From positions 1 through 37,278 of IMG/VR virus record IMGVR_UViG_3300013094_000133: 37,278 nucleotides of DNA. One strand, written 5' to 3'. Under the pieces are notes generated by a model, which did not search any database, was not told where the DNA came from, and saw nothing but the letters and a program-made list of their open reading frames with translations. How positions within the stretch are numbered: position 1 is the stretch's first letter; each line of letters starts with the position of its first letter. The stretch is from a virus. A program made the translations under genes and the position numbers. Of the stretch, positions 5,023-34,947 are shown one piece after another.

Positions 5023-7647
5023 ATGTCCATACAATTCCCCGCAAATCCAGTAAACGGTCAACTGTTCGAAATCGGATCCAGTGTCTATGCTTATAACTCT
5101 ACAAGACAGCGTTGGATAGCCACAGGATCTAGCCCTACGATCAATACTGGTACTAGCCTGGTCATTGGTGCACTAGCTAATCAACCCACAGTTTCAACAG
5201 GATTCCTACAGTTGCCTGTAGGTACCACGGCTCAGAGACCAGCAATCACTGCGGCTGTGAGTACAGGTACAGGAGGCACATTCTATACAACCGCGACTGG
5301 CCTATTTGCAGGACTATCAGCGGTACACATATTTACAGCCACAGGTACTAGCTATTTCACAGCCAGTTCTGCTGTTACTGTGGCCTATCTAGCTGTAGGC
5401 GGTGGTGGTGGTGGAGGTTGTGGCAACGGTGGTGGTGGTGGCGGAGCTGGTGGTATGACAACTGGAACATTTACAGCCTCTGCCAATACGACATACACTA
5501 TCACTGTAGGAGCAGGTGGGGCCAAAAGCACAGATGGAACCAGTTCAACTATCGTAGGTGGCAGCTTAAACCTAACAGCACTCAAGGGAGGCGCAGGTGG
5601 TAATGATGGTTATCCGGGCGGTTCTTGGACCGCCGCTGGTGGAGGTGCTGGTATATATGGATCAGGAGGTGGAGCTGGTAGAGACGCCACCCTATCTGGT
5701 AACGTTCCTCTATACGGAACAGGTGGAGCAGGCACTACAGGACAAGGGAATCCGGGCGGATCAGATCCAGGATACTGCGCAGGAGGTGGCGGTGGAGCCG
5801 GATCGGTAGGTGGCGCAGGTGGTGGGCTTGGTGGAGTCGGCGGAGCTGGTACTAGTTCAATAATAACTGGAGTATTGACCTACTATGCCGGCGGTGGTGG
5901 TGGAGTTACATCCTCTGTATCTCAGGCTGGCGGGGTTGGTGGTGGTGGGAGATCGTCACAGTTACCCGGAGGAGTTGCCGCACAGTCTGGCACTCCTGGT
6001 ACAGGAGGTGGCGGTGGCGGTGGCGGTAATCCAGGTTGGGTCAGCAATGGTCAGCCAGGTGGTCCTGGGATAGTAGTGATTTCTTACTCTTTATCAGCAA
6101 CTATTCCCACAGGATCAACACGTTTTAACACCACACTGAATCAGATAGAAGTCTATACGGGTTCTGCCTGGACCAAGATCGCCGGACCTGGATACTCGGC
6201 CAGCTTATTACTAGTAGGTGGAGGTGGAGGTGGATCGCCCTCCAGCGGTGGTGGTAGTGGTGGACTAGTAATCACTCAGGCCAATCTAACCACAGGCACA
6301 CAATACACAATAACAGTAGGCACAGGTGGAGCGGCTAATACGCCGGGCACCACTACGACATTTGTAAATTCTACTACAGGAGTCGCGGCCTATTCTGCCG
6401 GGGGTGGACAGGCAGGTCAACCTGGTTCAGTGGGTGGATTGAGTGGTATCGCCTACTCTCCCACACAAACTCTAGGCTACGGGTATCCAGGATCACCAAC
6501 AGGTGGCGGAGCAGGATCACGCGAACCAGGACATGGCGCCTGCGGTGGATCAGGTCGTGCTTTTGTCGATGGCCAGATATATGCCGCTGGTGCTCCCAGT
6601 ACCGGTGCTGTTGTTACTGCGGCCTCTGGGGGAACTCCTACCACTACAGGATCAGGACTATTTCCAGGAACCAGCTATGTGCATACCTATACCACTTCTG
6701 GATTTTTTACTACTACCAGCGCACTGTCGGTAGTGGCTTATATGCTGGTAGCTGGTGGTGGAGCAGGTGGAGTCAATTGGGGAGCTGGTGGTGGAGCAGG
6801 TGGATTCGTGACAGGTACATTTGCGGCTCTGGCAGGCACTACCTATACCATAACCGTAGGTGCTGGAGGCACGCCTGGCAGCAGATTTGCCGCTAGTAAT
6901 CCAGGAGGAAATTCATCGATCAGTGGTGCGGGTATTGTAACTATCACAGCCTGTGGTGGTGGCGGTGGTGGTTCATATGGTGGCGGCTATACAGGAGGTT
7001 CAGGCAGCGGAGATCAATTGGCAGTAGGATCACCTGGTTTTGGTGTGGCTGGACCCCAAGGATATCCTGGAGGAACTGGAGGAGGCACACAGCCTGGCGT
7101 ATTTGCCGGCGGTGGTGGAGCTGGTGGTAGTGGATTCAACGGAACCGGTCCAGGATCTGTAGTAGGACCAGCTATAGGTGGTCCAGGAAGAGCCTACAGC
7201 ATTTCTGGTTCGTCGGTAACCTATGCCGGTGGTGGTGGTGGAGGTGGGGGTGGTCCAGGAGTATCTCCGAGAACCATACCTGGCGGAGCAGGCGGTGGGG
7301 GCTCAGGTAAGGTAACCATCTGTACTAATCCCTGCGGAAGTCCACTAGGAGCAGGCACTCCCGGTACTCCAAACACCGGTGGCGGTGGTGGAGGTGGCAG
7401 TACCAACTGCGGAAACGGTGGATCTGGTGGCCCTGGAATAGTCATCTTAAGTTATTCTTTATCAGGCACTGCCAATGCTTCAACCAGCACAGGTAACGGT
7501 GGTGGCGGTGGTGGTGGTGGTGGTGGATCGGGTATAGTAAAAATAGCCTATCCTGGCACTCAACAGATTGGATCTGGAGGTACAACATCTACTAGTGGTG
7601 GATATTTCTATCATAGTTTTACGAGCCCAGGTACTTATATTGGTTAA
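5023..7647 (+). CDS. F1: glycine-rich tail adhesin with two inserted Gly-rich cassettes
   Basis: 874 residues; ATG 5023 with GGAGG at 5008-5012. Starts MSIQFPANPVNGQ, then a YNSTRQRW motif and GTTAQRP at residues 67-73. The natural continuation of that module (STRFNTTLNQIEVYTGSAW) comes only at residue 365, because glycine-rich cassette 1 lies between. A second, outer glycine-rich domain begins near residue 390 (LLLVGGGGGG), is interrupted by cassette 2 (about 535-815) and resumes as a run of ten glycines and SGIVKIAYPGTQQ. It ends in YFYHSFTSPGTYIG. Each Gly-rich domain follows the plan HxFTATGTSYFTA, VAYLxVGGGGGG, TYTITVGAGG, GPGIVVxSY, which fits the Gly-rich domain family of phage tails; some phage adhesins (S16 gp38) use glycine-rich segments packed as polyglycine-II helices to bind receptors. 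No LamG module is present. Receptor binding is inferred. Confidence 0.75.
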   Translation: MSIQFPANPVNGQLFEIGSSVYAYNSTRQRWIATGSSPTINTGTSLVIGALANQPTVSTGFLQLPVGTTAQRPAITAAVSTGTGGTFYTTATGLFAGLSAVHIFTATGTSYFTASSAVTVAYLAVGGGGGGGCGNGGGGGGAGGMTTGTFTASANTTYTITVGAGGAKSTDGTSSTIVGGSLNLTALKGGAGGNDGYPGGSWTAAGGGAGIYGSGGGAGRDATLSGNVPLYGTGGAGTTGQGNPGGSDPGYCAGGGGGAGSVGGAGGGLGGVGGAGTSSIITGVLTYYAGGGGGVTSSVSQAGGVGGGGRSSQLPGGVAAQSGTPGTGGGGGGGGNPGWVSNGQPGGPGIVVISYSLSATIPTGSTRFNTTLNQIEVYTGSAWTKIAGPGYSASLLLVGGGGGGSPSSGGGSGGLVITQANLTTGTQYTITVGTGGAANTPGTTTTFVNSTTGVAAYSAGGGQAGQPGSVGGLSGIAYSPTQTLGYGYPGSPTGGGAGSREPGHGACGGSGRAFVDGQIYAAGAPSTGAVVTAASGGTPTTTGSGLFPGTSYVHTYTTSGFFTTTSALSVVAYMLVAGGGAGGVNWGAGGGAGGFVTGTFAALAGTTYTITVGAGGTPGSRFAASNPGGNSSISGAGIVTITACGGGGGGSYGGGYTGGSGSGDQLAVGSPGFGVAGPQGYPGGTGGGTQPGVFAGGGGAGGSGFNGTGPGSVVGPAIGGPGRAYSISGSSVTYAGGGGGGGGGPGVSPRTIPGGAGGGGSGKVTICTNPCGSPLGAGTPGTPNTGGGGGGGSTNCGNGGSGGPGIVILSYSLSGTANASTSTGNGGGGGGGGGGSGIVKIAYPGTQQIGSGGTTSTSGGYFYHSFTSPGTYIG
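5257..6105 (+). repeat. Gly-rich cassette 1 (in F1, between GTTAQRP and the RFNT module)
   Basis: Head near 5264 encodes TGGTFYTTATGLF and AVHIFTATGTSYFTA. Tail near 6061-6090 encodes GPGIVVISYSL. The flanking GTTAQRP and STRFNTT pieces join without a gap in F3 and F6. Edges are judged by eye, within about 10 bases. Confidence 0.65.
6625..7470 (+). repeat. Gly-rich cassette 2 (in F1, inside the outer Gly-rich domain)
   Basis: Head encodes SGGTPTTTGSGLFPGTSYVHTYT, a divergent head. Tail at about 7429-7467 encodes GPGIVILSYSLSG. The outer domain resumes at once with ten glycines and SGIVKIAYPG. Edges approximate. Confidence 0.6.
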
Positions 7648-7650
7648 ATA
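7643..7650 (+). promoter_or_regulatory. Possible late promoter octamer GTTAAATA
   Basis: The octamer overlaps the F1 stop codon. With T4 late geometry (octamer -13 to -6) the start would be 7656, giving a 31-base leader that contains AAAGGAG. It shares only the TAAATA core with the T4 consensus TATAAATA. Confidence 0.35.
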
Positions 7651-7686: not shown

Positions 7687-8070
7687 ATGAGTCATTACGC
7701 AAGAGTAGAAAACGGAACTGTAACACAGGTCATAGTAGCAGAACAAGATTTTATCAACACTGGTGCTGTTGGAGATCCCGCTTCATGGATCCAGACCAGC
7801 TATAACACACGTGGCGGAGTACACTATGGTGCCGATGGACAACCAGACGGCGGTCTAGCACTGCGTGGTAACTATGCAGGTATTGGCTATACATATGATA
7901 GTGTTAATGATGTGTTTTATCCACCTAGCCCGTTCCCAAGCTGGACTATATCAGCTGAGTCAAACTGGTCCTGGACCGCACCTGTGGCACAACCAGCACC
8001 TATAGAAGGAAGCTATTGGTCATGGGACGAGCCTACAACTTCATGGGTAAGTAAACCAAATCCACAATAA
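7687..8070 (+). CDS. Small conserved phage protein between tail adhesin genes
   Basis: 127 residues; ATG 7687 with the strongest Shine-Dalgarno of the region (AAAGGAG, 7671-7677, 9-base spacing). The N-terminal half (MSHYARVENGTVTQVIVAEQDF, then NTRGGVHYG, LRGNYAGIGYTYD) matches a small protein widespread in cyanophage-type genomes and of no defined function, usually near structural genes. The C-terminal half is rich in Trp (SWTI, NWSWTAP, GSYWSWDE, SWVSK), reminiscent of short W-rich modules in fibre and fibre-assembly proteins. It is unrelated to the Gly-rich genes around it. Two options are a minor virion component or a chaperone for the adhesins; the sequence does not decide. The following gene starts 6 bases after its stop without a clear Shine-Dalgarno, suggesting translational coupling. 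Confidence 0.7.
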   Translation: MSHYARVENGTVTQVIVAEQDFINTGAVGDPASWIQTSYNTRGGVHYGADGQPDGGLALRGNYAGIGYTYDSVNDVFYPPSPFPSWTISAESNWSWTAPVAQPAPIEGSYWSWDEPTTSWVSKPNPQ

Positions 8071-14594: not shown

Positions 14595-14602
14595 CATAAA
14601 TA
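14595..14602 (+). promoter_or_regulatory. Late-promoter-like octamer CATAAATA
   Basis: Seven of eight bases match the T4 late consensus TATAAATA. It lies in the 40-base gap between F3 and F4. Predicted start is 14608, giving a 15-base leader with AAGG at 14612-14615. Confidence 0.55.
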
Positions 14603-14622: not shown

Positions 14623-17106
14623 ATGATCCAATTTCCAGCAAATCCCAGTAACGGACAACTAGTAGTGGTGGGCGCAACCACCTATGTCTACAACGCCAGC
14701 CGAGGTCGTTGGTTGGTAAACTACGTGGTTCCTGGTACCGGCACTGTGATCACAGCGGCCACATTCAGCTGTCAACCTACTACAAGTGTGGGTTATTTTG
14801 GCCTACCTGTGGGTACCACAGCTCAGAGACCTTCGATATATGTTGGATCTGGTGGAAATTCAGTTTATACTACAAGTACTGGTATATTCTCCGGAACCTC
14901 AATAGTACACGTATTCACAGCCACAGGCACTAGTTATTTCACAGCCACGGCGGCCATCGCTTCGGTTGCTTATCTAGCTGTAGCCGGCGGTGGAGGTGGA
15001 GGTGGTTCGACAGGTGGAGGTGGAGGTGGAGGTGGTGTGACTACAGGAACATTTGTAGCTACAGCCGGAACTACTTACTCGATCACTGTAGGTAGTGGAG
15101 GTGGGGGTGGAGTAGGAGTCGGTACTCTTGGTAAAACTGGAACCAATTCTGTAATCAGCGGCACAAATATATCTACTGTGACAGCCTACGGTGGTGGTGG
15201 TGGCGGAGGTAATTCTACTCCTGGTGGATCAGGAGGATCAAGTGGAGGTGGTGGCGCTTGTGGTTTTAGTGCTCCAGGTAGTGCTGTTCCTGGACAAGGC
15301 AATATAGGTGGAATTGGTTCAGGACCACCAGGATATGGGGGTGGCGGTGGCGGAGGTGCTTGGACTACAGGAACTAACGGAACTTCAGCGGGAGTTGGCG
15401 GAGCAGGTGGAGCAGGAACCAGCACCAACATAACAGGTACTTTATCTATCTACGGTGGTGGCGGTGGTGGTGGTTATTTTAGCGGTGGGACTGCTGGTAC
15501 AGGTGGACCCGGTGGGGGTGGAGCAGGTAACGGAAATCCTGGAACACCAGGTACTGGAGGAGGCGGAGGAGGTGATGTTGGAAATACTCCGGCGGCCGCC
15601 GGAGCCGGTGGTCCTGGTATAGTTGTATTGAGTTATGTGGTTTCATCGATACCAAACGGTGCACTACGCTACAACACCACAACTGGATTACCAGAAGTCT
15701 ACAAGGCTTCGAGCGGAACTTGGGTTAGTATAGTGTCAACCGGTGGCTATACAGTAAACTATCTCGCTGTTGGTGGGGGAGGTGGCGGATCAACTGGCAC
15801 AGGTGGCGCAGGCGGATTGATCTCTGCGTCGGCAGTGGTCTACACCGGAACACAATACGCAATAACAGTGGGATCGGGTGGGGCGGGTGCGGTAAACACA
15901 GCATCAGGATCAACGGGATCGGTAACCATTATAGCGGGCAAAGGACTGGGAGCCATAGCTCAGGGCGGTGGTGGTGGTGCTGGTGCAGGCAGTTTTGGTG
16001 GAGCAGGTGCTAGTCTAGGGGGCGGAGGCATTATTACCACAGGTACAGGTGGTACCTATTACACTACATCAACCGGCCTGTTCAGTGGAATTAGTGTGGT
16101 ACACATTTTTACATCCACCGGTGTCAGTTATTTTACGGCAACATCCTCTATACCCATAGTTGCATATCTAGCTGTAGGAGGTGGCGGTGGCGCCACCGGT
16201 GGCGTAGCCTCGGTCTATTTTGGTGGCGGAGGTGCTGGTGGAGTCGTGCGAACTGGAACCGTGGCATTGAGTGCGGGAGCGACCTATACCGTTACTGTTG
16301 GTGCGGGCGGTACAGCAGGTGGATCTGGACCCTCAGCAGTAGGTGGTACCGGAGGATCTAGCTCTATCAGTGGTCCGGGGATTAGCACAGTCACAGCCAC
16401 AGGTGGAAATGGAGATGTAGCTAACAGTAATGTTGGTGCTAGTAATGCCTGTTTTAGTGGAGGCACAGGAACCGGTTGCTATGGTGCAGGCGGTGGTGCA
16501 GGGGCCGGTGGCGCTGGATCGGGAATAAATGGCGGACCAGGCAAGGCCAGCTCTATCATAGGTGTTAGCACCTACTACGGAGGTGGTGGTGGTGGAGCCA
16601 ACGCAAGTACAAGTGGATCTGGTGGAGTTGGTGGTGGTGGAAATGGATCAACATCGCCTGGCAGCGGAACTGCAGGAACACCAGGAACTGGGGGCGGTGG
16701 CGGCGGTTCTCCTTCAATAGGTTCAGTAGCTGGAGGTCCTGGTATAGTTGTATTGAGCTATTCTCTAGCTTCTTCTGTATCAACAGCCTCTTCCTACACC
16801 TTTGGCCAAGGTCACACTACACAGACTCTATATGGTGGAGGATCAGGATCAGAAGGTCAGCCTGGTGCGGGTGGCACCGGCACAGTATGGCTGGCATCAA
16901 CTACTACCTTATATGCCGCAGGTGGTTATCCATCAACAGGCACAGTGGCTTCGGGCAACGGCGGCACGTTCAATTCAGCAGGTGGACCAGGCATCGCTAT
17001 CATAGGTTATCCTGGTACCCAACAACGAGGTACCGGTGGCACTACCTCAACCTTTAACAATCAGTTCTTCCATACATTTACAGCACCAGGAACCTATACA
17101 GCATGA
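14623..17106 (+). CDS. F4: glycine-rich tail adhesin, close paralogue of F1
   Basis: 827 residues; ATG 14623 with GGAGATAAGG upstream (AAGG to ATG 7 bases). Starts MIQFPANPSNGQ, lacking the Ser of the other F proteins, then YNASRGRW, and GTTAQRP at residues 64-70. The rest of that module (GALRYNTTTGLPEVYK) appears at about residue 346 because cassette 6 lies between. An outer Gly-rich domain (TVNYLAVGGGGGG, about 375) is interrupted by cassette 7 and resumes near residue 720 (TFGQGHTTQTLYGGG) through GPGIAIIGYPGTQQ to the tail FFHTFTAPGTYTA. Domain order equals that of F1, so the two are duplicates with diverged glycine-rich interiors. Its stop overlaps the start of F5. Receptor binding is inferred from family resemblance. 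Confidence 0.75.
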   Translation: MIQFPANPSNGQLVVVGATTYVYNASRGRWLVNYVVPGTGTVITAATFSCQPTTSVGYFGLPVGTTAQRPSIYVGSGGNSVYTTSTGIFSGTSIVHVFTATGTSYFTATAAIASVAYLAVAGGGGGGGSTGGGGGGGGVTTGTFVATAGTTYSITVGSGGGGGVGVGTLGKTGTNSVISGTNISTVTAYGGGGGGGNSTPGGSGGSSGGGGACGFSAPGSAVPGQGNIGGIGSGPPGYGGGGGGGAWTTGTNGTSAGVGGAGGAGTSTNITGTLSIYGGGGGGGYFSGGTAGTGGPGGGGAGNGNPGTPGTGGGGGGDVGNTPAAAGAGGPGIVVLSYVVSSIPNGALRYNTTTGLPEVYKASSGTWVSIVSTGGYTVNYLAVGGGGGGSTGTGGAGGLISASAVVYTGTQYAITVGSGGAGAVNTASGSTGSVTIIAGKGLGAIAQGGGGGAGAGSFGGAGASLGGGGIITTGTGGTYYTTSTGLFSGISVVHIFTSTGVSYFTATSSIPIVAYLAVGGGGGATGGVASVYFGGGGAGGVVRTGTVALSAGATYTVTVGAGGTAGGSGPSAVGGTGGSSSISGPGISTVTATGGNGDVANSNVGASNACFSGGTGTGCYGAGGGAGAGGAGSGINGGPGKASSIIGVSTYYGGGGGGANASTSGSGGVGGGGNGSTSPGSGTAGTPGTGGGGGGSPSIGSVAGGPGIVVLSYSLASSVSTASSYTFGQGHTTQTLYGGGSGSEGQPGAGGTGTVWLASTTTLYAAGGYPSTGTVASGNGGTFNSAGGPGIAIIGYPGTQQRGTGGTTSTFNNQFFHTFTAPGTYTA
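14843..15645 (+). repeat. Gly-rich cassette 6 (in F4, between GTTAQRP and the RYNT module)
   Basis: Head encodes GSGGNSVYTTSTGIF and IVHVFTATGTSYFTA. Tail at about 15609-15640 encodes GPGIVVLSYVV. Same insertion point as cassette 1. Edges approximate. Confidence 0.65.
16037..16770 (+). repeat. Gly-rich cassette 7 (in F4, inside the outer Gly-rich domain)
   Basis: Head encodes GTGGTYYTTSTGLF and VVHIFTSTGVSYFTA. Tail at about 16735-16765 encodes GPGIVVLSYSL, with DNA nearly the same as the tail of cassette 6. Edges approximate. Confidence 0.65.
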
Positions 17107-17107: not shown

Positions 17108-20100
17108 TATCCAATTTCCTTTATACATCAGTACCGGTACAACATCAACAGTGGCTGATCCTACCATCACCAGTGTAGTACTTCAACTACACGGGGATGG
17201 CATTGCCGCCTCGACTAACAGTAACTTCGTTGATGCGTCAACTAACACATTCGTAATAACACGAGTAGGCACGCCTACGCAGGGAAGTGTAAATCCATTT
17301 GGAAGTTATTGGAGTTATTATTTCGGCGGCAATGGAAACTATCTATACACTACATCTAACTCAACTTTCAATCCGGGTGCCACAGGTGCTTGGACCATAG
17401 AACTTTGGGTATTGCCTGTTAACACCACAGTAGGGAATATATTGTGTTTTGGAAATGGTAGTGCTTATGGTAACGCTATCGATTTCTATTGGACTGGTAG
17501 CAGTTTCACATTTAGTCAAAGCAACGGTGGTTCGGCTCCTGTAAACCTTACTACCAGCACAACCTACTCTGTTGGCGCATGGTATCATCTAGCTGTGTCG
17601 AAGAATGCCAGCAATCTAATAAACTTTTATATCAATGGTCAATCTGTAGCCACCCAGACCTATTCAAGTAGCCTTGCGGCGTCTACGGTAGCGGTGCTGA
17701 ATGGCGCATATGATAATAATGGTCTTGGTAACAACGGTGGAACCTTTTACATATCCAACGTGAGATGGACGCCTGGGGTAGCTGTCTATACTGCCAATTT
17801 CACACCTAGCACCACTCCGCTCTACACATTGACCAACACTACTTTTTTAACAGCGGCTACTAATCGTTTCCAAGACATATCAACAAACACCTTTGCATTG
17901 ACAGCGGCAGGCTCACCGTCGGTACAGCGTTTCTCACCATTCACTACCTCTACCGTCTATGCTACATCAACAGCTACCTTCTTGGGATCTAGTTATTTTC
18001 CTGCTACATATACCTATCTATCTGCTCCTTCGGCCAGTTGGCCTATCAACAGCACCACATGGACCGCAGAAGGTTGGTTCTATACCAACAGCTCATCGGG
18101 CAATGTGGGACTGTTCGTTTATGGTGATCTATTGGTAAACTGGTACGATGGTACCAACTTAAATTTCCAATACCGTACTAGTACTGCCGGCGGAACCTGG
18201 ATCAGCCTACTGGCCCCTTATACATTTAGAGCAGGCGTGTGGTATCATATCGCCATGGTAATGAATGTCACCACACTATCTGCCTATGTCAACGGCTCCA
18301 TAACCACCTCCAGTTCGGTGGCTTCTGCTTTGGGTCTATGGGGGGGTACTGGTGTCCAGGCAGTCTGGATTGGCGTTACAGATGTATATCCCTATGGTTC
18401 TCCAGACTATTCTCTTAACGGCTATGTCAGCAATTTCAAGATATCCAATACCGCGCTCTATACAGGGACATCTTTTACGGTACCTTCGAATCCATTATCT
18501 GCTACCTCTAGCACACTGCTATTGACCTGCCAATATTCAAACTCTGTGGCAGACGCATCTACCAATACCTATGCTGTTACCACCGTAGGATCCACAGCCA
18601 CTGTGTCTCTCCGCACACCGTTTGCCCGCAACGATACATCAACCGCGGCTACCCTCTACGGTGGAAGCATCTATCTCAATGGTACCACAGATTATTTGAC
18701 TGTAACATCTTCGACAAATTTAGCCTTAGGGTCTGGAGATTTTACTATAGAAACCTGGGTCTACACTACTATAGCCAATCAAACCTATGGGTCAGGAATC
18801 GTTGGCACATATGATGGAGGATCTAACGGGGGTTGGAGCCTTACTATAAACAGAAGCTCTGGGGGGCCTTATGGTATTGCATTCATACACAACAACACTA
18901 TACAGCAGTCTTATGGAACTTATCTAACTGCAAATACTTGGTATCATATCGCAGTTACTAGAGCTAGTGGAACATTAAGGACTTTCGTAAATGGAATACA
19001 GGTTGCGACAGGAACCTATGCTACTAATGACACAGTATTATCTAAGTGTTACATAGGAGCACAAGGTGCTGGTCAATATCATAGTGGTTATATTAGTAAT
19101 CTCCGCATGGTCAACGGTCAGGCACTCTACACAGGCACCTTTACAGTTACCACGGTGGCACTAACCACATCCAGCCAAGGTGCTACTGGTACAGTCCTGT
19201 TGATACCCGGCGTCAATGCGGGCATCATAGACACCACCATGCAGAATAACTTAGTCACTGTGGGGGCGGCTCAGATCAACACCACCGCTACCACAGTGAA
19301 ATATGGCTCTGGTTCAATGGGATTCAATGGCTCTAGTGGATATTTGTTGAGTCCTGCAACTCCACAATTAACCTTGGGAACAGGAAACTTTACTCTCGAA
19401 TATTGGTTATATTTGAATTCAACATCATCACAAGGGATATTTGGAACAAGACCACAGAGTACAAATGGTATATATCCCGTAATGTATTTTTTAAGCGGTA
19501 CATTAAGATATAATGTAAACAGCACTGATGTGATTTCAGCAAGTATATCCTCCAGCACCTGGTATCATATTGCTGTTAGTCGTTCTGGAAGTTCTACAAA
19601 AATGTTTATAAACGGTACTCAAGCTGGGTCAACCTACACCGATAACAACAATTACCTGTGTTCACGACTAGTAATCGGTGCGGATGATTATGTCCTTGGA
19701 AACAATCCGTTAAACGGTTACATAGACGACCTCAGAATAACTAACGGAGTGGCACGCTATACAGCTACCTTCACTCCACCTACGGCCGCCTTCCCAGATG
19801 TGGCAGTAATCACAGGTACTACAACCACCTATACCACTTCATTCACCACATCGGGGCAGGTGGTCCAGACTCTGCAGATCGGATATCCACAACAGCAGGG
19901 TGGAAATAGTGTCTATACAACGTCAACTGGCCTATTTTCTGGTACCAGCTATGTACACATATTCACAGCCACAGGAACCAGTTATTTCACAGCTACTAGT
20001 GCCATTGCCTCAGTGGCTTATCTCATAGTAGCTGGGGGCGGATCTGGAGGTAATTTTGCAGGAGGAGGAGGAGGTGCCGGTGGCATGATAACAGGAACAT

Positions 20101-27262: not shown

Positions 27263-27270
27263 TATAAATA
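27263..27270 (+). promoter_or_regulatory. Late promoter, consensus octamer TATAAATA
   Basis: An exact match to the T4 late promoter octamer, in the 51-base gap between F6 and the next fibre gene. Predicted start is about 27276, leaving a 26-base leader with GGAG at 27291-27294. Confidence 0.7.
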
Positions 27271-27301: not shown

Positions 27302-29206
27302 TTGACAATAGCAAATAATCTGTCGTTCCTAATGAATTCCGCGGGTGCCCTAACCACGGGAACCGTCAACGCTTCATCGTCGCCTATCACATTCAGCGCA
27401 ATCAACAGCCTGAAAGTTTCAATAGACTCTAACGGTTATCTGCTGATCAATACGGCTACCAGCGGTGGATCTTATTTCCTACAGGTACAGGGATCTACCT
27501 ACATAGCTAATACGCTGACAGTAGCAGGAGTTACCAACCTAGGTGCCGTGGGCAATGTCATTATCACAGGCGGTACCAGTGGACAGTATTTAAGTACAAA
27601 CGGCGCTGGTGGATTGAGCTGGGCCACAGTGACCGGCGGGGGTGGCGGAGCCAGTGTAACTATTTCAGATTCGGCACCAATCAGTTCTTCAGCAGGTAAT
27701 CTATGGTGGGATTCATCAGTAGGTAACCTAGCCATCTATTATGTTGATGCGGCTGGTGGACAGTGGGTTGATGCCGTATCATCATATGTGTTTCCTTCAA
27801 CTGTTAATAACCTAAACATAAGCACAGCTACGCAGAGCGTATCAACTACCACAGGTGCTCTGGTAGTCACAGGTGGTGTGGGTATTGGCGGAAACCTATA
27901 CGTAGGCGGTGGAGCGGCCAGCACATCAACTACCACAGGTGCTCTGGTAGTCACAGGTGGTGTGGGTATTGGCGGAAACTTAAACGTTGCTGGAACAATT
28001 ACCAGTAATCAGCTGACAGTTCAGTACACCACGATTACCAACGTAACGATCATAACGACCGATGTATTTACATTAACCAATACCACCACAGTGGTTTCTA
28101 CCACGACAGGTGCTCTAGTAGTCGCAGGTGGAGTGGGCATAGGTGGCGGTCTATTTGTTGGCGGTGCTATCACTGCTACCAGTCTAACCTTGCTGAGCGG
28201 AGAAACAGAACAAGGAAACGTTTCGATACTGTCTACTACTAGTAGCAATTCAACCACTACTGGTGCTCTCACAGTCACAGGTGGAGTGGGCATAGGTGGT
28301 AATCTAAACCTAGGTGGTAGCTTAAACATAGGCACAACACTGTTGGTTAATGGAGTCACACTAAATCCTGTGACCATATCAGATTCAGCACCAGCAACAC
28401 CAGCCGCTGGCCAACTATGGTGGGACAGCAACATAGGTAACCTGGCTATCTACTATGTAGACACATTAGGCGGTCAGTGGGTTGATGCAGTATCATCATA
28501 CGTATTCCCTAGCTCAGTTAATAATCTAAGCGTTACTACATCTACTCAATCAGCATCAACTACCACAGGTGCTCTAGTAGTCGCAGGTGGTGTTGGCGTT
28601 GGTGGAGCGTTATATATCAACACAACATCATTTATTGCCAATTCACAAATTATTACCACAGCTACCATTGGATCCTATGCGGCCAGTAATACAGGAACAA
28701 CTGGTACTTTTTTAATCTCAAATCTTACCACCGCTACCTACAACATAGCCAATACTTCAACAGGAGTCACAACAGGCACTGGCGCATTGACAGTGCAGGG
28801 CGGTGTATTCATTAGTAACACTGCTAGTGCGGCTATACAGTTATCAGCAACCACTGCCAGCAATACCGTCACAGCGGCACTTATTGTAGCGGGAGGCGCT
28901 TATATAGGTGGATCTATAGTCTACAACGGCCTAATAGCTACCAATGCTACTGCTACAACCATAGCCAGTGCGGCTACTATAGCGCCGGTCACGCAGATAC
29001 TCTATGTTTCTGGTACTACGCAGATTACCACAATCACTGCTCCTAAACCTATATCAGTCACAGGTGGTCAGATCACTTTAATTCCTACCGGTCTTTGGAC
29101 TACAGCAGCCACTGGCAACATAGCACTGGCGTCAACCGCAGTGGTTAGCAAGGCCTTGATCATGACCTACGATGCTGGTACTGCTAAATGGTATCCTAGT
29201 TATTAA
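27302..29206 (+). CDS. Repeat-built tail fibre / virion structural protein, paralogue of the left-edge gene
   Basis: 634 residues. The start is TTG 27302, chosen because GGAG sits 7 bases upstream and a consensus late promoter precedes it; the first in-frame ATG is a few codons inside. After an N-terminal segment (IANNLSFLMNSAG ... SIDSNGYLLINTATSGGSYFLQV) come repeats of TTTGALVVxGGVGIGG and two copies of a PAAGQLWWDSxxGNLAIYY...QWVDA module. The stretch YTTITNVTIITTDVFTLTN corresponds to YTTITQTQITSPDIFTITN in the gene at 1-1722, so the two are paralogues bracketing the adhesin cluster. The C-terminal 90 residues (TATTIASAATIAPVTQILYVSG ... MTYDAGTAKWYPSY) resemble a trimeric fibre tip. Its last 4 bases overlap the end of the convergent Nudix gene. 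A structural fibre role is inferred. Confidence 0.75.
   Translation: MTIANNLSFLMNSAGALTTGTVNASSSPITFSAINSLKVSIDSNGYLLINTATSGGSYFLQVQGSTYIANTLTVAGVTNLGAVGNVIITGGTSGQYLSTNGAGGLSWATVTGGGGGASVTISDSAPISSSAGNLWWDSSVGNLAIYYVDAAGGQWVDAVSSYVFPSTVNNLNISTATQSVSTTTGALVVTGGVGIGGNLYVGGGAASTSTTTGALVVTGGVGIGGNLNVAGTITSNQLTVQYTTITNVTIITTDVFTLTNTTTVVSTTTGALVVAGGVGIGGGLFVGGAITATSLTLLSGETEQGNVSILSTTSSNSTTTGALTVTGGVGIGGNLNLGGSLNIGTTLLVNGVTLNPVTISDSAPATPAAGQLWWDSNIGNLAIYYVDTLGGQWVDAVSSYVFPSSVNNLSVTTSTQSASTTTGALVVAGGVGVGGALYINTTSFIANSQIITTATIGSYAASNTGTTGTFLISNLTTATYNIANTSTGVTTGTGALTVQGGVFISNTASAAIQLSATTASNTVTAALIVAGGAYIGGSIVYNGLIATNATATTIASAATIAPVTQILYVSGTTQITTITAPKPISVTGGQITLIPTGLWTTAATGNIALASTAVVSKALIMTYDAGTAKWYPSY
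27841..27979 (+). repeat. Perfect 55-base direct repeat, 84-base period
   Basis: Bases 27841-27895 recur without change at 27925-27979. They encode STTTGALVVTGGVGIGGN. Identity at every third position indicates a recent duplication or gene conversion, and the 28-codon period keeps the frame. Confidence 0.85.
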
Positions 29207-31054: not shown

Positions 31055-32269
31055 TTAACCGTCCGTTTTAGGTCTTAGGGCCTTGCTCAATGCCTGGCGT
31101 TCTATTACCACCTGACCGTTGATGGTAGCTGTATTGGTGTTGTTGATAAATCCACCTTTCAGTGTTTGATTCACGGCCTTGCCTGCGAATGCGCCTGAGG
31201 CCACATCCTGAGCACCAAAGTTGTTCAGAGTCATTCGTACATTAGATTCAAAATAGATCCAATTGCGGCCGTCATATCTATAGAGACGATTTGGCAGATA
31301 ATCTGTACGTAGATAGAATTGACCAGATACCGCACCTGTGGGGAATGTAGCGCCAAATCCATAAGGTGCACCATTAGGTGGAGCACCGTTGCCGGCCAGA
31401 TAACCACTACCTACATAGATATTTCCATTAGGAGTCTGTAAGACCATAGAAGCATCAACCGCCGCCTGGGCGATAGAAGCGTCTAAATTTATCGTGCTGG
31501 CATCTTCTACGCTGACCAGGCCTGTGCTGGTGGTAGTAGGTATGATGTAGTAGCCGGAGGTATTAAATCCGCTGTTGGGGACATCAGCATCTGCCTGTTC
31601 TATGATCTGATCGTTGACAGCGATATCAGTATTGTAGGTTGATAGGATATCACGCAGAGTAGTACCACTTCCATCTCCGATATCTGCACCTAGTATTTCG
31701 TTGTATTCTTGGCTGTCTACCAGTGGTACGCATTTAGCACGCAGTAGATGTGGATACCAGGTCTGGCTGAATCCTGCTGTGGGACGTGTGACATCCTGTA
31801 CTACATAGAATCTTTTTAGTGCCAGTGAAGCATTGTCCAGTGCATATTCATCTTTGAGATGCGGCAATTCCAGCACGTCACCACTCATTATCTTGCGGCC
31901 TAGATTTTCCACTGAACTGCGTAGATGGAAAAACATCATGATGTTGTCATTGTTGAGGAATAGACCAAATTGGCTGAGGTTGAAATCTAGATCCTGCATC
32001 TGATGTATACCTCGTAGCACATAGACATCAGGTTCATAGTGGCGATCACGGTTTTCCATGAATAGTAGATCCTGGATGCCCAGTTCGGGGATAGGTCCTT
32101 CGTTCACAGGAACAGCAGGAGTTGACGCCTCTGCTGTGGGATTTACCGGCCCCGCATATTTGTGTACGAACACATCGGTTCCGCCCACTTGGAATTCTTC
32201 GTTGATCACACGATCGATGAATCGGAAATCATTTCCTTTTTCGGGACGGTATAGGCTGAGTTTTGGCAT
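31055..32269 (-). CDS. gp14: Neck protein gp14
   Basis: 404 residues. gp14 works with gp13 to complete the head neck so that tails can attach. The sequence MPKLSLYRPEKGNDFRFIDR, then GTDVFVHKYAGP, IQDLLFMENRDRHY, LSQFGLFL and SQTWYPHLLRAKCVPL is the cyanophage-type gp14 pattern. It is longer than T4 gp14 (256 residues). An extra C-terminal part (about residues 245-404) contains GQFYLRTDYLPNRLYRYDGRNW, a small module like those in the fibre proteins. The ATG at 32269 has no Shine-Dalgarno; it lies exactly five bases after an AATAAATA octamer. It heads a gp14-gp15-Nudix operon and is divergent from gp13 across 28 bases. Confidence 0.85.
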   Translation of the reverse strand: MPKLSLYRPEKGNDFRFIDRVINEEFQVGGTDVFVHKYAGPVNPTAEASTPAVPVNEGPIPELGIQDLLFMENRDRHYEPDVYVLRGIHQMQDLDFNLSQFGLFLNNDNIMMFFHLRSSVENLGRKIMSGDVLELPHLKDEYALDNASLALKRFYVVQDVTRPTAGFSQTWYPHLLRAKCVPLVDSQEYNEILGADIGDGSGTTLRDILSTYNTDIAVNDQIIEQADADVPNSGFNTSGYYIIPTTTSTGLVSVEDASTINLDASIAQAAVDASMVLQTPNGNIYVGSGYLAGNGAPPNGAPYGFGATFPTGAVSGQFYLRTDYLPNRLYRYDGRNWIYFESNVRMTLNNFGAQDVASGAFAGKAVNQTLKGGFINNTNTATINGQVVIERQALSKALRPKTDG

Positions 32270-32274
32270 ACTTG

Positions 32275-32282
32275 TATTTATT
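32275..32282 (-). promoter_or_regulatory. Late-promoter-like octamer AATAAATA for gp14
   Basis: Seven of eight bases match TATAAATA. Five bases (CAAGT) separate it from the gp14 ATG, so with T4 late geometry transcription would begin at the A of ATG. Confidence 0.6.
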
Positions 32283-32284
32283 GA

Positions 32285-32292
32285 ACTAAATA
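32285..32292 (+). promoter_or_regulatory. Late-promoter-like octamer ACTAAATA for gp13
   Basis: It contains the TAAATA core. Five bases (CTCAT) separate it from the gp13 ATG, the same spacing as for gp14 on the other strand, and there is no Shine-Dalgarno. The two opposing octamers are two bases apart. Confidence 0.5.
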
Positions 32293-32297
32293 CTCAT

Positions 32298-33056
32298 ATG
32301 ACCGAGACAGAACAACAAAGACAGATAGTCCGTGACTATATAAATGCCATGTTAGGTGGTGGTATGGTGGATATAGAGCTAGATCCAGTCCACTATGATA
32401 CAGCTATAGATCGCGCCTTGAACAAATTCCGCCAGCGTAGTACCAATGCTGTGGAAGAAAGTTTCGGATTTTTGACCATCACGCAGGATGTCACAGACTA
32501 TATTATGCCCAAAGAAGTCATGAGCATACGTCAGCTGTTCCGCCGTAGCATAGGATCACGTACAGGTGGAGGAGATGGAGGCAGTTTATTCGAGCCATTT
32601 AACTTAGCCTACTCAAATACCTATTTGTTAGCTTCAACAAACATGGGTGGATTAGCCACCTACTATGCTTTTGCATCATACCAAAAGATGGTTGGTAAAA
32701 TGTTCGGTACAGACATCAATTTTACCTTCAATAAAACTACCAAGATGTTGACCATCATGCAACGTCCTAGAGCAGACGAAGAACTGCTAGTATGGATGCA
32801 CAACTATCGTCCAGACTTCAATCTACTACAGGATCCCTATGCTAGCCAATGGTTGCGTGACTACAGCCTAGCCACAGCCAAGATCATGCTGGGAGAAGCT
32901 CGTGAAAAATTCAATTCTATCGCCAGCCCACAGGGATCTACTACCCTAAATGGTACCGCCCTAAAAAATGAGGGCAAGGCTGAGATCGAGATGCTGGAGC
33001 AGGATCTCATCAACTACAAAGAGGGCGGAACTCCTCTTACATTTATTGTGGGTTGA
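32298..33056 (+). CDS. gp13: Neck protein gp13
   Basis: 252 residues from ATG 32298. The frame is open further upstream, over the opposite-strand gp14, but that part is a shadow. Family features: REYINAMLGGG-like start (RDYINAMLGGGMVDIEL), a helix with RALNKFRQRSTNAVEES (about residues 42-58), FGFLTI, YIMPKEVMSIRQLF, and HNYRPDFNLLQDPYASQWLRDYSLA toward the C-terminus. T4 gp13 is 309 residues. gp13 and gp14 together form the neck that seals the filled head and receives the tail. In T4 genes 13, 14 and 15 run the same way; here gp13 is divergent from gp14/gp15. The start lacks a Shine-Dalgarno and sits five bases after a TAAATA octamer. Confidence 0.85.
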   Translation: MTETEQQRQIVRDYINAMLGGGMVDIELDPVHYDTAIDRALNKFRQRSTNAVEESFGFLTITQDVTDYIMPKEVMSIRQLFRRSIGSRTGGGDGGSLFEPFNLAYSNTYLLASTNMGGLATYYAFASYQKMVGKMFGTDINFTFNKTTKMLTIMQRPRADEELLVWMHNYRPDFNLLQDPYASQWLRDYSLATAKIMLGEAREKFNSIASPQGSTTLNGTALKNEGKAEIEMLEQDLINYKEGGTPLTFIVG

Positions 33057-33073
33057 CGTTCGTAGTTGGATAA

Positions 33074-33081
33074 GATAAATA
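33074..33081 (+). promoter_or_regulatory. Late-promoter-like octamer GATAAATA for the HNH gene
   Basis: Seven of eight bases match TATAAATA. Five bases (AAAGT) separate it from ATG 33087, nearly the same string (CAAGT) as ahead of gp14. No Shine-Dalgarno is visible. Confidence 0.6.
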
Positions 33082-33086
33082 AAAGT

Positions 33087-33893
33087 ATGAAAAACATACT
33101 TTTAGAAATTATCAACAACGATAAATCCTACAATAAATCCGCTACACGATATCTGCACAAAACTCAACCAGAGCTATGGACTGAAATATTAGACAAAACT
33201 TCTTTTCTACCTAATGATGCAATGCCAAAACAAAGGGTATGGCATATATTAAATGATGTCTGGGAAATACCTCATTGTCCTATTACCGGCCTAGAAGTTA
33301 AATGGTGGGATAATAGATATCTAGAAACAGCCAATCGTTCCGCAAAAGCTACTCTGGCAAATAAATTAGGAAAAAATAAAACCCAAACAGAGGAAGCTAA
33401 ACGAAAAAGAGTAACATCTAATCAAAAGATTATAGATGCAGGTTTAAGAAAATTGCCTGCCATAACCGATAAAATGAAAAAAATTAGAGCTGAAAAAATT
33501 AAAACAACTTCTCTAAAAAAATATGGGGTATCAAACCCTAGCAAAAATATTAGAATAAAAAAGAAAATATCAGATAAAAGAATAGAGCAGGGTGCAACAC
33601 CAAAACACCTACGACCATTCCGTGATCTATATCATTATGCTGTATTAGTCGCAACTAAACAAAATTGGAAAGATCATTTCGATAAGATAAATCCTACCAG
33701 ATTAAATCGAAGTGAAGTTGACCTAGATCATATCTATAGCATACAACAGGGATTTATAGATAATATTCCTCCATATATTATAGGTCATTGGACTAATTTA
33801 CGTATGTTAGAAAAAGGCGAGAATTATTCAAAAGGTATGCGATGCGATAAAAGCAAAGAAACCCTATTTGAGGATTTTTTCAAAAACCGTTGA
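33087..33893 (+). CDS. HNH-type endonuclease, probably a free-standing homing nuclease
   Basis: 268 residues from ATG 33087. A TTG at 33066 would add seven residues but lies upstream of the octamer, so ATG is preferred. The C-terminus has the metal-site plan of HNH enzymes: DLDHIYSIQQGF (His about residue 215), then HWTNLRMLEKGENYSKGMRC (about 237-256). The middle is lysine-rich and holds LKKYGVSNPSKNIRIKKKI (about 160-180), a motif common in phage homing nucleases and likely DNA-binding. G+C in the 60-base blocks starting at 33361 and 33541 is 28% each by hand count, against 47% for 32881-32940 in gp13. Such composition and its place between core genes point to recent acquisition. It is not inside another gene, so it would cut related phages lacking it. 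Activity is inferred. Confidence 0.75.
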   Translation: MKNILLEIINNDKSYNKSATRYLHKTQPELWTEILDKTSFLPNDAMPKQRVWHILNDVWEIPHCPITGLEVKWWDNRYLETANRSAKATLANKLGKNKTQTEEAKRKRVTSNQKIIDAGLRKLPAITDKMKKIRAEKIKTTSLKKYGVSNPSKNIRIKKKISDKRIEQGATPKHLRPFRDLYHYAVLVATKQNWKDHFDKINPTRLNRSEVDLDHIYSIQQGFIDNIPPYIIGHWTNLRMLEKGENYSKGMRCDKSKETLFEDFFKNR

Positions 33894-33939: not shown

Positions 33940-34614
33940 ATGATCATTGGAATATGTGGATTTATCGGTTCGGGAAAAGACACCATAGCAGACTATCTCT
34001 GCAATTTCGAAGAATTCCGTCGAGAATCATTCGCATCAACACTGAAAGATGCCGTAGCGGCCGTGTTTGGTTGGGATCGAGTCATGCTGGAAGGTCGTAC
34101 CAAAGAAGCTCGTGAGTGGAGAGAACAGGTAGATCCATGGTGGAGCCAACGCCTAGACATGCCACATCTTACCCCACGCTGGATCCTACAGTATTGGGGT
34201 ACAGAAGTCTGCCGCAAGAGCTTCCACGATGACACATGGATCGCCAGCCTAGAAAACAAACTCCGCAACAGCCGAGACAATGTGGTGATATCAGACTGCC
34301 GTTTTCCTAATGAGATCAAGGCCATACGTGAACAGGGTGGAGAGATCGTATGGGTGCAACGGGGTCCATTACCTGTGTGGTATGACGTAGCCCTAGAGAC
34401 CAATCAAGGCTCATTCGATCATATGAAGACTGCCTATCCAGAAGTGCATCGTTCAGAATGGGCCTGGGTGGGCACAGAGTTCGATCACATCGTTGACAAC
34501 AACGGTTCTATAGGAGACCTGTATGACCAGGTCAAACAGTTGGTCAGAAGTCCGGAACCAGATCGCCTCGACGCCACTGAACGCCCTCTCTATATAGGAC
34601 TCTTGAGCAGTTAG
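33940..34614 (+). CDS. Deoxynucleoside monophosphate kinase
   Basis: 224 residues. The start ATG 33940 is chosen because AGGGGA (33928-33933) lies 6 bases upstream and the P-loop must be near the N-terminus; the open frame further back is not used. The P-loop is GFIGSGKDT (residues 7-15). LKDAVAAVFGW, LTPRWILQYWGTEVCRKSF, TWIASLENKL and VVISDCRFPNEIKAI follow the phage dNMP kinase plan (T4 gene 1 type), where the enzyme phosphorylates dNMPs to dNDPs for phage DNA synthesis in the cytoplasm. Substrate range cannot be read. It has its own sigma70-like promoter. The last 71 bases overlap the convergent zinc-ribbon gene. It sits among late morphogenesis genes, an unusual place for nucleotide metabolism. 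Confidence 0.8.
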   Translation: MIIGICGFIGSGKDTIADYLCNFEEFRRESFASTLKDAVAAVFGWDRVMLEGRTKEAREWREQVDPWWSQRLDMPHLTPRWILQYWGTEVCRKSFHDDTWIASLENKLRNSRDNVVISDCRFPNEIKAIREQGGEIVWVQRGPLPVWYDVALETNQGSFDHMKTAYPEVHRSEWAWVGTEFDHIVDNNGSIGDLYDQVKQLVRSPEPDRLDATERPLYIGLLSS

Positions 34615-34879
34615 CACAGATGGTCTTGAGATTAGTGGGTCGGCAGTTCTTGAGATCTCCGTCCACGTGAAACACATCGAACTGATCAGGATGCTTGGAA
34701 GTGAACCTACAGTGTTCACACACCGACTTTTTCTTATAGCCTGATAATTCCCATAGCGGCCGTGCATCTCGGCTGCCACGACTGCAGTGGTCACACTTAC
34801 GCCTATAGTAAGGCTTACCTTCCTTATAGTAGTTTATAGCCACTGGTCTAGACTTGCATTTCGAGCATAATTTTCTCAT
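34544..34879 (-). CDS. Small HNH-like zinc-ribbon protein
   Basis: 111 residues from ATG 34879 (MRKLCSKC). An upstream in-frame ATG at 34963 would add 28 residues but lies beyond the AGGAAAAGG Shine-Dalgarno and the likely promoter. There are two CxxC pairs (Cys 5/8 and 29/32) and two more (54/57 and 88/91). The latter pairs enclose FHVDGDLKNC and NLKTICANC, the HVDGN...NL...C pattern of zinc-bound HNH folds. The second Asn of the usual HVDGNxxNN is replaced, so catalysis is uncertain. I recognise near-identical small proteins from cyanophage-type genomes, where they have no set role. A DNA-binding or nicking function is inferred. It runs against both neighbours and overlaps the kinase end by 71 bases. 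Confidence 0.7.
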   Translation of the reverse strand: MRKLCSKCKSRPVAINYYKEGKPYYRRKCDHCSRGSRDARPLWELSGYKKKSVCEHCRFTSKHPDQFDVFHVDGDLKNCRPTNLKTICANCSRVLYREGVQWRRGDLVPDF

Positions 34880-34910: not shown

Positions 34911-34918
34911 TATTTAAC
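34911..34918 (-). promoter_or_regulatory. Possible late promoter octamer GTTAAATA for the zinc-ribbon gene
   Basis: The same octamer as at 7643. Predicted start is 34905, leaving a 26-base leader with a purine-rich Shine-Dalgarno. A TATAAAAA element (34899-34906, minus strand) is an alternative. Confidence 0.35.
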
Positions 34919-34939: not shown

Positions 34940-34947
34940 GCTAAATA
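34940..34947 (+). promoter_or_regulatory. Late-promoter-like octamer GCTAAATA for gp18
   Basis: TAAATA core; predicted start 34953, leaving a 26-base leader with AGGAG (34966-34970) eight bases ahead of the gp18 ATG. Confidence 0.45.

Follow-up and report, generated by a model that had tools for sequence, protein, structure and literature searches.

How can a late phage gene be translated when a promoter-like hexamer ends only five bases before its start codon? The question is raised by IMG/VR record IMGVR_UViG_3300013094_000133, a viral fragment of 37,278 bases (this whole stretch is hereafter called the window). In the window, TAAATA stands five bases before the ATG of three genes: gp14 on the minus strand, the divergent gp13 on the plus strand, and an HNH-labelled gene, also on the plus strand. 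An earlier note on this DNA had proposed that transcription of these genes starts on the A of ATG, yielding leaderless mRNAs, and that other late genes, with the hexamer further upstream and a Shine-Dalgarno (SD) sequence, are translated in a second mode. Comparison of the window with its relatives makes it very likely that late promoters of the gp55 type serve two modes of translation, leaderless (leader of 0-3 nucleotides, nt) for a defined set of genes and SD-led for others.

Position of the TAAATA core relative to the start codon

Both strands of the window were scanned. The pattern TAAATA-N5-ATG (N5, any five bases) has exactly three matches, at 32267-32280 (minus), 32287-32300 (plus), and 33076-33089 (plus), all at the genes named above; the spacers are CAAGT (gp14), CTCAT (gp13), and AAAGT, as the note had it, and no SD-like sequence is found in the nearby upstream bases. 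Shuffled versions of the window contain 0.39 matches on average, and three or more were seen in 1 of 100 shuffles. TAAATA alone is not enriched in the window (16 observed vs. 19.8 expected); the striking feature is its placement, not its abundance. In the genes with which the three had been contrasted (7687, 14623, 27302, 34979, and 34879), the distance from TAAATA to the start is indeed 20-36 bases. All five also have an SD-like sequence, although that of 34879 is weak. The case for the N5 pattern from the window only is modest, and it is the relatives that carry it.

The relatives come from two IMG/VR scans and comprise 160 loci, the best 80 of 206 gp14 relatives and the best 80 of at least 600 gp13 matches; the set covers nearest relatives only. 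For the spacing scan, relatives and window were pooled and duplicates masked at 93% identity, leaving 1.44 Mb. Each TAAATA followed by an ATG opening an open reading frame (ORF) was counted, with k the number of bases between the two. Identical upstream regions were removed for counts of distinct starts and counts per gene, and near-identical ones were kept. Gene calls in the relatives are uncurated longest-ORF calls. Mean folding energies of the first 45 nt (-2.5 vs. -3.7) were not used.

The distribution of distances has two peaks. The first consists of 209 cases at k = 5, 99 at 7, and 24 at 8; it is followed by a stretch from 9 to 16 with 0-6 cases per position (23 in total) and then by a second, broad hump at about 17-35. 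An SD accompanies only one of the 313 distinct starts with the core 4-8 bases upstream, compared with 224 of the 281 with the core 16-40 bases upstream, and only 12 starts fall at 9-15. The spacing peak at five bases coupled to the lack of an SD, which had been suggested as a check, is thus present in the relatives. Geometry accounts in part for the missing SD in the short class, because at N5 the hexamer takes up -11 to -6, the usual place of an SD. The near-empty stretch is not forced in this way. It is expected if transcription starts near the sixth base after the core, because leaders of about 4-10 nt would be too long for leaderless initiation and too short to hold an SD. The fixed spacing is also visible per gene: among 689 called genes of four large relatives, 34 have TAAATA at N5, none of them with an SD, whereas any of 14 permuted hexamers occupies this place in at most 8.

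Independent support is provided by the near-empty stretch, by the base at -1, and by the practically ATG-only starts. All 193 distinct N5 starts have a pyrimidine (T or C) at -1, vs. 95 of 224 SD-led starts in the same set. A pyrimidine at -1 followed by a purine at +1 is the usual preference of transcription initiation, and the observed bias is what a +1 on the A of ATG would be expected to produce. The same position follows from the T4 numbering, in which the first base of the late octamer is A(-13) (PMC2988020): at N5, +1 would fall on the A of ATG. The start codons at k = 5 are 209 ATG, no GTG, and no TTG, and a single GTG was seen at k = 4; ATT starts in the same scan number 17 at k = 5-8, similar to other distances. 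Among relatives, gp13 and gp14 differ chiefly in the third positions of codons, beginning with codon 2 or 3. This points to protein-level selection on the frame from close to its start codon and is in keeping with translation from that ATG.

Several observations point to the hexamer as the core of a late promoter. In the relatives, TAAATA lies upstream of late virion genes, their lateness being judged from gene function. A (G/A)(C/A) preference before TAAATA is common to the five-base and the SD-led classes, and thus both look like the same promoter. A late sigma of the gp55 family is encoded in five of six clade contigs (phrog_12791, E 1e-83 to 1e-89; phrog_234, E ~1e-25 to 1e-26), all large relatives.

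The gp13/gp14 locus

The N5 arrangement is well conserved at gp13: of 114 distinct upstream regions, 109 have k = 5 and one has k = 6, down to about 60% protein identity. The exceptions are L014, L107, L044 (N5 ATG about ten codons upstream of the aligned start), and L148 (SD pattern). The two genes diverge from a short gap, measuring 28-29 bp from start to start in 48 of 113 loci, 24-30 bp in 68, and 28 bp in the window, so that a promoter for each is expected inside. A separate subclade has a gap of 43-44 bp (L142, L147, L149, L152-L154, L157-L159, L282, and L284). In this subclade, L282 and L284 come from metagenome-assembled genomes (MAGs) labelled Rickettsiales and Pelagibacter, perhaps a hint of habitat or host. 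Naming a host from contig matches was rejected; three MAG contigs, two of one 'Rickettsiales' MAG and one of a 'Pelagibacter' MAG, are too weak a basis.

The starts of gp14 are more diverse. Spacing of 4-8 bases without an SD is found in 93 of 114 distinct regions and an SD in 20; one (L093) has neither an SD nor TAAATA. Most gp14 relatives belong to the seven-base class, which consists mainly of this gene. Here, A occupies position 5 after the core in 96%, and ACT usually precedes ATG, which fits either a 3-nt leader or a start on ATG. Accordingly, the proposal of mRNAs with +1 on the ATG is backed by the sequences for the five-base class, and for most gp14 genes it may have to be relaxed to a leader of 3 nt.

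The start codon of gp14 changes with the mode. All 92 leaderless-type genes that could be compared start with ATG, the 93rd (L155) having an apparent one-base frameshift near the start. Among the 18 SD-led genes of the clade, the start is ATT in 16, TTG in one, and ATG in one; the SD-led outgroup genes of Atu_ph07 and Phosso start with ATG. On the best gp14 tree, the mode requires at least 13 changes, seven of them forced by well-supported branches. In the seven independent pairs, a non-ATG codon goes with the SD in six, the opposite is never seen, and one is unchanged (sign test, p ~ 0.03). In mycobacterial reporters, as far as the available text of PMC4633059 goes, leaderless initiation accepts ATG and GTG only, and leadered initiation accepts rare codons including ATT. 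The gp14 switch matches this rule and hence behaves as two initiation modes should. The ATT codon would probably hold down gp14 output once an SD is present.

Two further observations concern SD-led gp14 genes. In 16 relatives (e.g., L009, L010, L013, L096, and L115), a conserved virion gene has an apparent ATT start preceded by an SD, often GGAGAAYTAAA. In L006, L032, L047, and L058, the ATG at the old place after the core opens another short frame (MPDFIQNK in L006, by eye), and gp14 begins further on with its own SD and ATT, a possible case of translational coupling.

Other genes and other phages

Outside gp13 and gp14, the 4-8 spacing occurs at 133 loci in 14 families, 93 of them at N5. 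In the four large relatives, the short-spaced families include, by profile, the terminase large subunit, a tail-tube-like protein, virion structural proteins, a gp25-like baseplate wedge (four- and seven-base spacing), and one AMP-binding enzyme. Other short-spaced genes are a homing endonuclease (phrog_314, in L014) and a weakly HNH-like family. SD-led genes with the core further upstream are represented by the sheath (in the window), tail tube, and baseplate hub. Thus, the proposed coexistence of two translation modes among late genes is supported by the sequences of the relatives.

The features of the window are listed in the table. The names gp14 and HNH, taken from the earlier note, are kept for convenience: the PHROG match of gp14 is named only 'virion structural protein', and the HNH gene has no Pfam match and a weak match to a homing-endonuclease PHROG. 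By profile, the neighbors in the window are the sheath and a sheath stabilizer. The nearest cultured phages by tblastn are the T4-type jumbo phages Atu_ph07, PA5oct, and Phosso for gp14 (34-37% identity) and the PA5oct group for gp13 (46%).

Table. TAAATA cores and associated genes in the window.
Feature	Position	Strand	Basis or remark
gp14 (name from the earlier note), virion structural protein, head and packaging	31055..32269	-	phrog_11591, E 5.8e-79; predicted leaderless
TAAATA core of gp14, 5 bases before ATG	32275..32280	-	pattern scan and relatives
28-bp gap holding, back to back, the leftward late-promoter core of gp14 and the rightward one of gp13	32270..32297	.	
TAAATA core of gp13, 5 bases before ATG	32287..32292	+	pattern scan and relatives
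gp13-like neck protein, head-tail adaptor Ad2	32298..33056	+	phrog_211, E 2.6e-33; predicted leaderless
TAAATA core of endonuclease-like gene, 5 bases before ATG	33076..33081	+	pattern scan
Homing-endonuclease-like gene (HNH of the earlier note)	33087..33893	+	phrog_5104 (unknown function), E 8.9e-9; phrog_3339 (homing endonuclease), E 1.3e-4; predicted leaderless
Contrast core of SD-led tail sheath gene (34979 onward), 31 bases before its start	34942..34947	+	sheath phrog_10581, E 2.6e-98
Contrast core of small gene 34544-34879 (-), 31 bases before its start; weak SD	34911..34916	-	
Contrast core of SD-led gene 7687-8070, 36 bases before its start	7645..7650	+	
Contrast core of SD-led gene 14623-17106, 20 bases before its start	14597..14602	+	
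Contrast core of SD-led gene 27302-29206, 31 bases before its TTG start	27265..27270	+	

Two endonuclease-like genes of different PHROG families each have an N5 late core of their own, one in the window and one in L014 (13268-13882, minus). In T4, seven free-standing endonucleases are described as apparently promoter-less in the available part of PMC2988022. The small gene 34544-34879 has an HNH_3 score below the cut-off and 43% identity to its copy in L152 (11576-11935, minus); 14 relatives in its family are short-spaced, whereas the window copy has a 31-base spacing and a weak SD.

The reach of the pattern was assessed by counting TAAATA-N5-ATG against a control with the pattern reversed, in some counts with a pyrimidine at -1 also required. 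Six clade contigs contain 53 matches vs. 9 for the control. With the pyrimidine, 15 further clade contigs contain 79 vs. 7, not all of them independent (G007, G009, and G010 have match strings in common with G003, to which they look near-identical). Nine named phages including T4, Aeh1, and S-PM2 together have 82 vs. 66.

The cultured Pelagibacter phage HTVC008M has 12 vs. 1, with the pyrimidine required. Among the 198 genes of the deposited annotation, 12 have TAAATA at -11 to -6, more than any other hexamer (permutations, at most 3). All 12 start with ATG, 11 have a pyrimidine at -1, and 11 have no SD hit; 11 of them are among the 12 pattern matches, and the twelfth match is not an annotated start. 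These genes include the DNA end protector, head closure, tube cap, baseplate wedge, tail completion, and putative tape measure. The DNA end protector (18392-18916, minus) and head closure (18943-19440, plus) genes are divergent, with a 26-bp gap and two N5 late cores, the same layout as that of gp14 and gp13 in the window clade.

A general property of T4-type phages was considered and rejected. Raw counts of the pattern and its reverse are 3/2 in Phosso, 15/12 in PA5oct, 24/19 in SCTP-2, 6/11 in 121Q, 3/3 in Vibrio 2.275.O, 1/2 in Aeh1, 5/3 in S-PM2, 10/5 in T4, and 15/9 in Atu_ph07; with the pyrimidine required, they are 2/2 in KVP40, 3/9 in RaK2, 0/0 in Cr30 and phiM9, 1/2 in Syn9, 2/4 in P-SSM2, and 1/0 in ORM_20. 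ORF-based counts show no peak at five in T4, Atu_ph07, Phosso, or PA5oct (Atu_ph07 has three cases at 7); they used 200 kb of PA5oct and 400 kb each of Atu_ph07 and Phosso, and the raw counts used whole genomes. Those of the named jumbo phages whose gp14 upstream regions were inspected have TAAATA well upstream and an SD, except SCTP-2, where none was seen. The N5 pattern is therefore a trait of the clade, plus one cultured pelagiphage, and not of T4-type phages in general.

Competing explanations and known systems

The explanation that we favor is the following. Host RNA polymerase with the phage gp55-like sigma would bind the -10-like TAAATA, no -35 element being needed. At the N5 genes (gp13, terminase, tail-tube-like, and endonuclease-like), transcription would start on the A of ATG; at the N7-N8 genes (most gp14), it would start on an A of ACT-ATG, leaving a leader of 0-3 nt. 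Translation would begin at the AUG at the 5' end, with no pairing of the ribosome to an SD. In the same genomes, further late genes (e.g., sheath, tube, and hub) combine an ordinary SD with the same core at a distance of about 17-40 nt.

Several points weigh against this explanation. The three window octamers depart from the T4 consensus: contrary to the earlier note, they share only the hexamer, reading AATAAATA (gp14), ACTAAATA (gp13), and GATAAATA (third gene), and the full consensus TATAAATA is absent at these sites. They resemble the a/gC variant of Aeh1 late promoters described in PMC2988020. At k = 5, 20-44 cases in the 1.44 Mb belong to each of some permuted hexamers, the best being AATATA with 44; for ATAAAT and AAATAT, the counts at 4-8 bases are 198 and 175, owing to a one-base overlap with the motif. 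The pyrimidine at -1 has one exception in the four large relatives (33 of 34 starts) and one in HTVC008M (11 of 12), and so is not quite universal. In the seven-base class, position six is C in 83%, so that the start is more likely the A at position 5 (a 3-nt leader) or position 8. The switch to ATT reaches only p ~ 0.03 once shared ancestry is allowed for. T4 (10 vs. 5) and Atu_ph07 (15 vs. 9) are slightly up in the raw counts, the highest of the nine phages among counts of at least 10. The pattern is weak in the pelagiphage Mosig (7 vs. 2) and the methylophage Melnitz (5 vs. 2) and absent in three cyanophages, and thus is not family-wide. Finally, we infer the exact 5' ends, and leaderless initiation itself, from the promoter position and the pyrimidine at -1.

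The strongest alternative is that these are real promoters from which transcription starts a few bases earlier, leaving a leader of 1-5 nt on all short-spaced mRNAs, those of the five-base class included; this overlaps the 0-3 nt of the favored explanation. T4 transcription start positions can vary, and the A at position 5 of the seven-base class, mostly within ACT before ATG, is in line with such a leader. In the five-base class of the relatives, however, each of the 193 starts has T or C at position 5 and A at position 6; there is one exception among 34 in the large contigs and one among 12 in HTVC008M. This pattern argues for a start on the ATG and makes a leader on all of these mRNAs unlikely.

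Much less probable is that TAAATA at N5 is a translational element, A/T-rich and ribosome-binding or Kozak-like, of transcripts that start upstream and do carry a leader. Positions -11 to -6 are where ribosome contacts matter, and the SD is absent there, but the same hexamer with similar 5' flanks also lies upstream of SD-led genes, and the 24-30-bp gap of 68 of 113 gp13/gp14 loci should hold a promoter for each gene. Permuted hexamers are much rarer at N5, and both the invariable pyrimidine at -1 in the 193 starts and the ATG-only rule fit a transcription start better. Chance, for which the lack of hexamer enrichment and the one shuffle in 100 with three matches might speak, is refuted by the conservation of the site in the gp13 regions and by the 209 cases at k = 5, so that its probability is negligible.

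The search for a factor that distinguishes leaderless-reliant phages gave one lead. A homologue of initiation factor 3 (IF3) is encoded by the SD-led phages Atu_ph07, Phosso, and 121Q; none was found in the 48 clade contigs, which are incomplete, or in HTVC008M. According to the title of a paper in the reference list of PMC4633059, IF3 antagonizes leaderless starts. A link between the absence of IF3 and the leaderless mode is only a lead, because the contigs are incomplete and IF3 was likewise not found in PA5oct, SCTP-2, and T4. Phage ribosomal protein bS21 was rejected as a discriminator: it is encoded by HTVC008M as well as by five SD-led jumbo phages (Atu_ph07, PA5oct, Phosso, SCTP-2, and Vibrio 2.275.O) and was not found in 12 clade contigs.

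Under the favored explanation, the leaderless mode may set a low output for low-copy parts such as the neck and the terminase, with SD-led gp14 compensating by its weak ATT start. A point against this is the tail-tube-like leaderless family, which may not be low-copy. It is possible, although doubtful, that leader length acts as a gene-dosage code. With the same sigma and core, low-copy parts (neck, terminase, and endonucleases) would be leaderless and bulk parts (sheath and tube) SD-led; gp14, on gaining an SD, would decay to ATT; and leaderless-reliant phages would be without an IF3 of their own, which some SD-led jumbo relatives have.

In summary, the late genes of an uncultured T4-type clade and of a cultured SAR11 phage seem to fall into two translation modes with the same promoter core. 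The pattern offers a precise start-site rule for gene callers. In pelagimyophages, detection of middle and late promoters is described as unsuccessful in the available text of PMC7029224, and the TAAATA-N5 rule may help there. The alternation of leaderless ATG and SD-led ATT in gp14 is a natural experiment on start-codon rules, and HTVC008M, being cultured, makes the question of 5' ends experimentally accessible.

T4 late transcription is a textbook case, and its mRNAs are generally described as having SD-containing leaders. The window clade is similar to T4 in its late promoters, which, as described in PMC2988020, have TAAATA at -10, no conserved -35, a gp55-family sigma, and late virion genes as targets. 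It differs in spacing: the cores of T4, Atu_ph07, Phosso, and PA5oct are mostly about 17-40 nt upstream with an SD, whereas a set of genes in the window clade has them 5-8 nt upstream and no SD. In the open-access library that was searched, we found no report of leaderless late mRNAs in T4-type or jumbo phages, and the word "leaderless" does not occur in a T4 post-transcription review (PMC3014915). What therefore appears to be new is that one T4-type late promoter serves some genes in a leaderless mode and others in an SD mode; leaderless late mRNAs of phages as such are known. An example is provided by the Thermus phage P23-45, whose middle and late mRNAs are leaderless like those of phiYS40.

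In several other systems, the likeness is partial. The authors of the study of jumbo phage AR9, with mapped late promoters, remark that phage transcripts are often leaderless, whereas AR9 itself has leaders of 26-491 nt and its own multisubunit polymerases (available part of PMC5312081). In Deinococcus-Thermus, a -10 element adjoining the ORF yields leaderless mRNA, and the genes described in the available text are bacterial, with no phage late sigma (PMC12340547). Mycobacterial leaderless genes, as presented in the available text of PMC4633059, similarly restrict the start codon at the 5' end and allow ATT only with a leader; they differ in being bacterial and in accepting GTG, which is unseen at k = 5 in the window clade. 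A further parallel is Thermus phage phiYS40, which has late mRNAs without a leader and depends on leaderless initiation; it belongs to another phage class with other promoters, and, according to the available part of PMC3594737, most of its middle and late transcripts are leaderless and IF2 and IF3 levels shift. Compared with phiYS40, the window clade would combine a T4-type sigma with a mixture of leaderless and SD-led late genes.

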